Assembly (NCBI RefSeq): GCF_000784355.1
Contig: NZ_KN360940.1
Location: 114,551 to 178,550, forward strand
Reading direction: 5' to 3'
DNA length: 64,000 nucleotides
DNA from: Methanolacinia paynteri
GTDB lineage: Archaea > Halobacteriota > Methanomicrobia > Methanomicrobiales > Methanomicrobiaceae
Under the pieces are notes generated by a model. The model saw nothing but the letters and a program-made list of their open reading frames with translations, was not told where the DNA came from and did not search any database. The position numbers were made by a program, and so were the translations under genes. Below, piece by piece: positions 38,535-57,489 of this stretch (position 1 is its first letter; each line of letters begins with the position of its first letter).

Positions 38535-38735
38535 TTGCTCCTCGCCGGCTCCCTCGCAATCTCGGCAGTCTTCTTCATGGCCGGACTGCCGTTCTTCTTC
38601 ATGTTCCTGTTCATACCGTTAATCCCGCTCTTCGGCCGGCAACGGAGGGCCAAAAAGTGTCCGCTGTGCGGGTGGGAGACCTACGGCGACGAGATATACT
38701 GTCCGTATGACGGAACAGCACTTGAAGAGGAATAA
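38535..38735 (+). CDS. Small membrane protein with C-terminal zinc ribbon
   Basis: 66 residues. A hydrophobic N-terminal half (LAGSLAISAVFFMAGLPFFFMFLFIPLIPLF, one long or two short segments) is followed by RRAKKCPLCGWETYGDEIYCPYDGTAL, two CPxC/CPxD knuckles typical of a zinc ribbon. TTG 38535 comes five bases after the mfnF stop and has no strong ribosome site, so coupled translation is likely. It could be a membrane-tethered metal-binding or adaptor protein. No specific function is known to me. Confidence 0.65.
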   Translation: MLLAGSLAISAVFFMAGLPFFFMFLFIPLIPLFGRQRRAKKCPLCGWETYGDEIYCPYDGTALEEE

Positions 38736-38765
38736 AATCAGGCTCTTCGCTGATTTCACTACTTT

Positions 38766-39110
38766 CGGCAACCCATCGCCGTGAGCCGCACAGCAGGCTC
38801 ACGGATCGGCCCCGACCTCGGGGCCTCTCTATCATGATAGGCCGCTCAGGGGATAGACAAGTATCCCCTGAGTGGCAAGACGCGGTAAACTCATGGCGTG
38901 TACGGAATGAAATATGCTCCAAAAACTAAATTCAACAGCTCCGGGGACCCTTGCCGGTCCCCGAGCGTGCCGTGAGATGAGTATCTTATGGCAAGGCCCC
39001 TGGGTAGGGGCCGTCCGGCGGCATGGCCGCCGGTGCCGAGGTCGCCTGGGTAAGATATGTACACAATATCCAAACGTATGCAAGGATGAGAAAATGCTTC
39101 GCATTTTCTG
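38766..39110 (+). other. Hairpin cluster B, candidate structured RNA
   Basis: At least nine stems in ~340 bp between convergent genes. Among them: CCGTGAGCC/GGCTCACGG (38779-38804), GGCCCCGA/TCGGGGCC (38808-38825), palindrome CTATCATGATAG (38829-38840), a 14-bp stem 38842-38875 with one G-T pair and loop GACAAG, CGGGGACC/GGTCCCCG (38942-38963), an 11-bp stem 38968-38993 with two G-T pairs, GGCCCCT/AGGGGCC (38995-39012), CCGGCGGC/GCCGCCGG (39015-39033) and AGAAAATGC/GCATTTTCT (39089-39109). All three G-T pairs are wobbles on the plus strand, as expected of a plus-strand RNA. No open frame is plausible. 38766-39201 has no gene. Confidence 0.6.
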
Positions 39111-39201
39111 GCAATTGTTTGCTGCCCAAAAATTATTTGCCCACATGAAACAGCGAAGAACCGAAAATTGCATGAACCGTGATATCAAAAAAGGGTTATA
39201 T

Positions 39202-56955: not shown

Positions 56956-57489
56956 ACTAAATATAACTACCTGAAGATCCTCCACAACTTTTTCAGGTAA
57001 ACCTCAGAACACGAAAACTCAGGACAAAGGCTCATAATAAAGCGAAGGAGGAAAGGGAAACCACCTTCTCTTTTTTACCCAAATTTAGGATTGTTTTTTC
57101 TTTGAATTTTGTTTTGATTTTTGAAATTCTTGAATGGGGTGTTAAAACAGACGTTATACAAGGGAGGGGGAGGTATCCCCCTCCCTGTGACCCTCCCTCT
57201 CATGACGATAGGTCGCCGTCGGGATGGGCAAGCATCCCTCCGGCTCCAGGTCTTTTCCCGACTTGTTTTTTTAAATTCTTTGCGACTCAGATCACTGGTT
57301 CATAATTATGACTTTTTTCCCCGGCCGAGGTTACCCGAAAGGGTAGCGTCCAGGCCGGGCTATCGCGATAGCGCAAGCCCTGAGGTCAGGGCGTGTTCAC
57401 GGAGCGGATGCGGAGCGAACTGCGCAAAGGTTGCCTCCAGAAAAAAATCACCGAGTAAAAAATCTTGAATTGATAAAAAAGAATCCAAA
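56956..57489. other. Intergenic region holding terminators and hairpin cluster C
   Basis: TACCTGAA (56968-56975) pairs with TTCAGGTA (56992-56999), and a second GAAGG/CCTTC stem at ~57042-57066 is followed by T6, both as terminators of fdhAB. Hairpin cluster C follows from 57160. No gene is visible. Confidence 0.55.
57160..57421 (+). other. Hairpin cluster C, candidate structured RNA related to cluster B
   Basis: Stems: an 11-bp AGGGAGGGGGA/TCCCCCTCCCT (57161-57186); GGGATG-GGCAAG-CATCCC (57221-57238) extended by GCCG/CGGC (57215-57244); an outer CCCGGCC/GGCCGGG (57320-57359) enclosing TACCC-GAAA-GGGTA (57332-57345, a GNRA tetraloop); palindrome GCTATCGCGATAGC (57359-57372); and GCCCTGA/TCAGGGC (57377-57392). 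The GGGATG stem and its flank align with cluster B at 38827-38868. It lies between convergent fdhB2 and the ClC gene. Confidence 0.6.

Follow-up and report, generated by a model that had tools for sequence, protein, structure and literature searches.

A 64,000-nucleotide stretch of the Methanolacinia paynteri genome (the window, that is, the whole of the DNA analysed here) contains two intergenic regions, clusters B and C, in which an earlier note had described a shared hairpin module with a compensatory change at its closing base pair. Does this likeness reflect common descent and selected structure, and what kind of element carries the hairpin? Reading the sequences directly, we found the two hairpins at 38827-38868 (B) and 57197-57238 (C), with small corrections: the letters TCA stand between GGCCGC and GGGGATA in B, and CGTC between GGTCGC and GGGATG in C. 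Two sequences could not, by themselves, show a compensatory change at the closing pair.

The B and C modules follow a common plan of a C-rich strand, GAUAGGUC, a 12-bp stem, a hexaloop and UCC, with the UCC following the hairpin in C. All window features given below lie on the + strand, except target-site duplications, to which no strand is assigned. In B, a conserved GATAGGCC (38836-38843), marked by conservation and by the model match described next, precedes a hairpin (38841-38876) with the stem GCTCAGGGGATA/TATCCCCTGAGT, a GCC/GGC extension and the loop GACAAG (38856-38861). In C, the conserved GATAGGTC (57207-57214) precedes a hairpin (57215-57244) with the stem GCCGTCGGGATG/CATCCCTCCGGC, a TC/TC internal mismatch and the loop GGCAAG (57227-57232); both hairpins are backed by pair counts and covariation. 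A covariance model trained on family C copies alone (R1) matched the window at 38824-38873 with 31.5 bits (E=1.1e-4 in 164 kb) and thus recovered the B hairpin, so that, judged by sequence, the modules are homologous and the hairpin is indeed common to both clusters. When the window was ranked without filters by a joint model of B and C (R2), the B and C places, both among the model's own training members, came out as the top two (70.2 and 58.7 bits; next 18.8).

Alignment of 36 diverse module members (A4) revealed changes on both sides in 10 of the 12 stem pairs and a covariation score of 0.513, compared to 0.200 +/- 0.016 for shuffled alignments; slid pairs did not exceed 0.176. At the closing pair, G-C occurred 23 times, A-U 12 times and G-U once, with no broken pair, bearing out the compensatory change family-wide. 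Covariation also rose above background among 126 distinct hairpins, in which stem pairs 14-33, 19-28 and 20-27 exceeded all values of a tree-aware null written in the manner of R-scape (60 null alignments); pair 20-27 is the closing pair in question (G-C 80, A-T 40, T-A 2, others 4). One neighbouring pair outside the stem, within the 5' flank, likewise exceeded all null values, which we attribute to register shifts in anchoring. Because a G was demanded at the first and last loop position when the 126 hairpins were anchored, it is the invariant positions in an alignment of thirty C modules (A2) that speak for the loop without such a constraint; family-wide, GACAAG and GGCAAG broaden to GRCRRG, in line with the loop conservation noted earlier.

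The covariation had been called direct evidence for selected structure. This wording is too strong, as template switching and exchange between copies also give paired double changes. Template switching is able to create and maintain hairpins (PMC8794818), and a mutational origin of the perfect stems and double changes, via fork template switching or conversion between copies, with one arm rewritten from its partner or entire copies swapped, is compatible with the transposon-borne origin developed below. Such an origin would fit the near absence of intermediates (724 Watson-Crick, 17 G-U and 10 A-C pairs at the inner six stem positions), as well as near-identical copies in another genus that vary largely at the hairpin tip. 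It would also fit the observation that orthologous copies are mostly no closer to each other than paralogues, a sign that copies have been exchanged or have inserted anew. However, it leaves unexplained that the loop, GAUAGGUC and UCC are kept across genera and that the module has a fixed place in its element. We regard this origin as possible but rather unlikely; template switching could lie behind part of the covariation, though not behind the conserved loop and flanks.

The module is by no means confined to these two places. R1 matched 19 of 60 relatives, three congeneric species having 53, 69 and 46 copies. Among 232 genomes from the class, 47 had R2 matches; copy counts there are lower bounds, as only 24 candidates were scored per genome. 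In a phylum sample of 197 genomes, matches were restricted to the same order; as traced by these models, the module ranges across the Methanomicrobiales and is absent from the rest of the phylum sample. Weak R1 hits in another family (f4/g12; E ~1e-5) covered mostly the G-rich 5' hairpin, and R2 gave E-values of 0.004 or worse there, or none. The exact hairpin had no match in viral contigs, and a phage or virus origin was rejected.

Cluster B turned out to be one of about 50 genomic copies of a structured repeat of about 280 nt: a BLAST search of 38766-39110 against its own genome gave 55 matches besides itself, at 78-89% identity. The structured core (38766-39046; ~281 nt), defined by alignment of forty full copies (A1), folding and pair counts, is closed by a CAACCC...GGTCG-type pairing and has fold z-scores of -8.5 on the + and -6.9 on the - strand. 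In its hairpin P1 (38779-38804; CCGTGAGCC / GGCTCACGG), four of nine pairs changed on both sides, and double changes were also seen between orthologous copies. The P2 helix could just as well consist of two local hairpins, with a single compensatory change speaking for the long-range form. An initial RNAalifold consensus mixed long-range pairing with local hairpins and was replaced by a hand-set structure backed by pair counts; a first iterative nhmmer model was dropped, as it matched both strands of the nearly palindromic core. B cores were also found clustered head-to-tail within one intergenic gap, with up to five units, some partial (L063; L101:12497-13955; L015).

The whole B element (38741-39162; 422 bp), delimited by its copies, terminal repeats and orthologous site, has ends of the form GGCTCTTCGC...GCGAAGAGCC. 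Its left terminal inverted repeat (38741-38759) reads GGCTCTTCGCTGATTTCAC, or GGCTCTTCGCTAATCTGTGTGGGTA in other copies, and its right repeat occupies the TTGCCCACATGAAACAGCGAAGAACC region (39138-39162), as judged from ISL3 ends and the orthologue; in a related genus, complete ISL3 transposase genes (L176, L177) are bounded by the same pair of dissimilar ends. The left repeat is preceded by the target-site duplication TAAAATCA (38733-38740), and the right one is followed by a decayed duplicate, GAAAATTG (39163-39170), which family copies also delimit. The orthologous site of Methanolacinia petrolearia, with TAAAATTA after the right end, restores the 8-bp duplication of the window copy to TAAAATCA/TAAAATTA. 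Among 17 B copies, a mean of 5.0 of the 8 duplication bases match, compared to 3.1 upon shuffling (maximum 4.2 in 2000), and two copies are perfect (8/8). The gap orthologous to one copy with a perfect duplication (L027) lacks the B element in the sister species and is too diverged to give a clean empty site. By its two terminal inverted repeats and decayed 8-bp target duplication, cluster B is classed as an ISL3-type miniature element (MITE). The earlier description of covariation in two otherwise different intergenic regions thus holds for the covariation; the regions themselves belong to two high-copy repeat families.

Cluster C (57156-57434) belongs to a separate family with at least 53 copies in its own genome, where the query 57140-57440 retrieved 59 matches belonging to this different, modular repeat. 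Together, the two families amount to well over a hundred copies in this genome. Module 1 (57156-57247; 92 nt), delineated by R1, R2 and its 53 copies and 97% identical to its sister-species orthologue, comprises a 5' hairpin, the C-rich strand, GATAGGTC, the shared hairpin and TCC. The 5' hairpin AGGGAGGGGGA / TCCCCCTCCCT (57161-57186) is supported by pair counts, and the C-rich strand ACCCTCCCTCT (57190-57200) is among the best-conserved parts of module 1 in A2. Family copies further delimit module 2, a hairpin of the CCCGGCCGAGGTTACCCG...CGGGTAG..GGCCGGG type (57320-57359), and module 3, a branched GCGCAA...TGCGCAAAGGTTGCC structure (57365-57434). Terminal inverted repeats were not found on C: none of 82 genus copies has an ISL3 right end (up to 3 mismatches), and no left end was seen by eye on family C copies. 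In this stretch and in further copies (57320-57434; L069-L105), C elements appear as mosaics with additional structured modules in varying order (CCCGGCCGAGG..., GCGCAA...TTGCGC, CGAAGGGCTTTCGCCC...CCTTCGGTCACC).

What carries the module emerged from other genera. One (G014) contains about 15 near-identical, sharp-ended MITE copies with the terminal repeats GGTTCTTCTCCATTTTTCTGA / GACTCTTCGCCATATTTCTGA and a whole C-type module inside, with perfect 8-bp duplications in the flanks read (L227, L228, L230, L231, L232). Across these copies (L227-L242), otherwise near-identical, the hairpin tip is the most variable part (GGCTAGG, GGCTAAG, GGCAAG, GACAAG), resembling a mutation hot spot. In two genera (G011 and G005), the module lies directly 3' of an ISL3 transposase sequence and 5' of the right terminal repeat; at L261, L262 and L263, the order is transposase sequence (PF01610, E=5e-60 at L261), module, then ...AGAAATATGG.GAAGAGNC. 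There are only three such module-bearing transposase loci, two of them fragments, and the distance from module to right repeat is about 45 nt in both genera. Among the module copies listed from other genomes and belonging to neither B nor C, 16 of 48 have this right end (up to 3 mismatches), mostly 44-56 nt downstream. Control windows, in part overlapping real ends, gave 2.5%. In many ISL3 elements of the order the stop codon falls within the right repeat, and the module is absent there. An ISL3 transposase was found neither in the window's own genome nor in its two congeners, so that mobilisation would lie in the past or occur in trans.

Based on the ISL3 ends, the target duplications and the location 3' of the transposase, we suggest, with a probability of roughly 0.6, that the shared hairpin is the best-conserved domain of a transposon-borne structured module carried by ISL3 3' ends and MITEs. 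The module would travel at the 3' end of Methanomicrobiales ISL3 elements, in the interval that separates the transposase stop codon from the right terminal inverted repeat, would also be carried by their non-autonomous derivatives, and would have seeded intergenic repeats that lie mostly between convergent genes. Family B would go back to a MITE that had ISL3 ends of one kind and that acquired or retained the module. Family C may likewise descend from this module, as an older form that is without ends and has other structured modules attached; since its copies lack the ISL3 right end, we only infer its origin from such an element. In an intact element, the module might act as an RNA structure in the 3' UTR of the transposase message, where candidate roles are 3'-end formation, protection or a block to read-through, with putative recognition via the GRCRRG loop and the preceding GAUAGGUC. 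MITEs would then have retained it and deposited it at host 3' ends.

The genomic placement of the families bears on this scenario. With genes called by a simple codon-usage score and a 100-kb background that itself includes some copies, 40 of 69 C and 25 of 44 B copies fall between convergent genes, compared to 10 of 53 background gaps (p=1e-5 and 1e-4, respectively). That the transposon derivative B and family C share this bias suggests safe-haven placement; both may persist there mainly because insertion between convergent genes is least harmful. In co-directional gaps, the copies are evenly distributed over the strands (C 11:8, B 5:9), and stem mismatches in B lack a clear G-U bias (24 kinds of G-U, 21 kinds of A-C), which is not as expected were every copy a maintained single-stranded RNA. 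Given the even strand placement and near-equal mismatches, an RNA role for every copy is not supported. An attempt to deduce the strand from G-U versus A-C counts was given up with the counts nearly equal. The module may serve as a 3'-end RNA structure or as a DNA-level signal.

Could the module instead be a free-standing regulatory or catalytic noncoding RNA in many copies, with the transposon link an incidental capture? The very stable folds (z -8.5), the covariation and the conserved loop and flanking single strands agree with this idea, as do the order-wide range, the lack of transposon ends on most C copies and the copies that two species share at orthologous sites, with both flanks in common (~14 C and ~6 B pairings). 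On the other hand, it does not account for target duplications, terminal repeats and a module 3' of the transposase, and the copies lack an orientation bias relative to genes, have symmetrical mismatches and are without an Rfam relative; we therefore consider it improbable. A broader proposal merges both lines: an order-wide structured RNA class that began as, or was captured into, ISL3 transposase 3' UTRs and was spread by MITEs to ~100 host 3' intergenic sites per genome, some copies now being 3'-end elements read by a dedicated RNA-binding factor via GRCRRG. We offer it tentatively, as a speculation that may well prove wrong.

A DNA-level repeat resembling enterobacterial REP/BIME units, which would act as a hairpin in DNA or as a palindrome bound by a protein (transposase, topoisomerase or nucleoid protein), likewise has a low probability. 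The repeats are, like REP/BIME, palindromic, multicopy and intergenic, with tandem clusters within one gap and an orientation-neutral placement at convergent 3' ends; G-U and A-C mismatches are about equal, and in three orthologous pairings (L072/L154, L102/L153, L097/L164) the C copy occupies the same gap of two species in inverted orientation. However, the Y1/HUH transposase of REP systems (RAYT, PF01797) was absent from the five genomes tested, with positive controls, so that a REP/RAYT origin was rejected; unlike REP/BIME, the module is longer, multi-domain, archaeal and ISL3-linked, being a fixed-polarity, sub-terminal part of ISL3 elements, and conservation of the loop and the unpaired GAUAGGUC would need another explanation. 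Chance likeness of two GC-rich hairpins has next to no probability: short palindromes are common, and about 0.9 chance matches to the exact B hairpin 20-mer GGGGATAGACRAGTATCCCC are expected in the genome collection, but all four matches found lie in Methanomicrobiales (three) or an unplaced euryarchaeal bin (one), and the C-only model's match to B together with the order-restricted range in the phylum sample refutes it.

MITEs, REP-like repeats and ISL3 elements have all been described before. B and its relatives agree with known ISL3 elements and MITEs in terminal repeats starting G(G/A)(C/T)TCTTC, 8-bp target duplications and a DDE_Tnp_ISL3 transposase with the same ends in related genera; they differ in having a multi-hairpin module, conserved and covarying, that lies after the transposase stop and before the right end and is retained in MITEs; our literature search found no description of it. 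HEARO/omega-RNA, GOLLD and ROOL are large structured RNAs associated with mobile elements; the partner here is an ISL3 transposase rather than IscB or TnpB, and an Rfam scan, our only comparison with these RNAs, gave nothing credible for the module at gathering or relaxed thresholds. Archaeal MITEs of Sulfolobus, Haloquadratum and others are likewise non-autonomous and intergenic, with terminal repeats and predicted structured transcripts (PMC10969869). Here, by contrast, covariation was measured, and one module is common to elements with different ends across genera. Neither Rfam nor the literature searched contained a covarying structured module that is common, across an archaeal order, to ISL3 elements, MITEs and host repeats without ends.

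What began as an isolated pair of hairpins is now a previously undescribed repeat system; its anatomy, polarity and carrier are known, and it recurs in many genomes within one order of methanogens. As the same module occurs in elements with a transposase as well as in fresh MITEs and in old copies of the host, these form a natural series that could be used to probe whether compensatory changes stem from selection on structure or from template switching, and whether transposon 3' ends become host 3' ends. For annotators and RNA-family curators, the model would explain ~100 intergenic gaps per genome.

Two minor observations concern the layout of the module and its slot. In C (57161-57200) and the A2 copies, the 5' hairpin AGGGAGGGGGA/TCCCCCTCCCT is followed by ACCCTCCCCCT, a near mirror image of its pyrimidine arm, an arrangement that would suit an intramolecular pyrimidine triplex, or else a competing 7-bp pairing; this third strand is better conserved than the 5' hairpin, and other genera have the same layout. 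In ISL3 elements from another family within the order (L276, L278), a different structured stretch follows the transposase stop (GGGGACTTCGTCCCC, GCGCAAAAGGTC..GACTTTTGCGC), as if the 3' slot took exchangeable hairpin modules.
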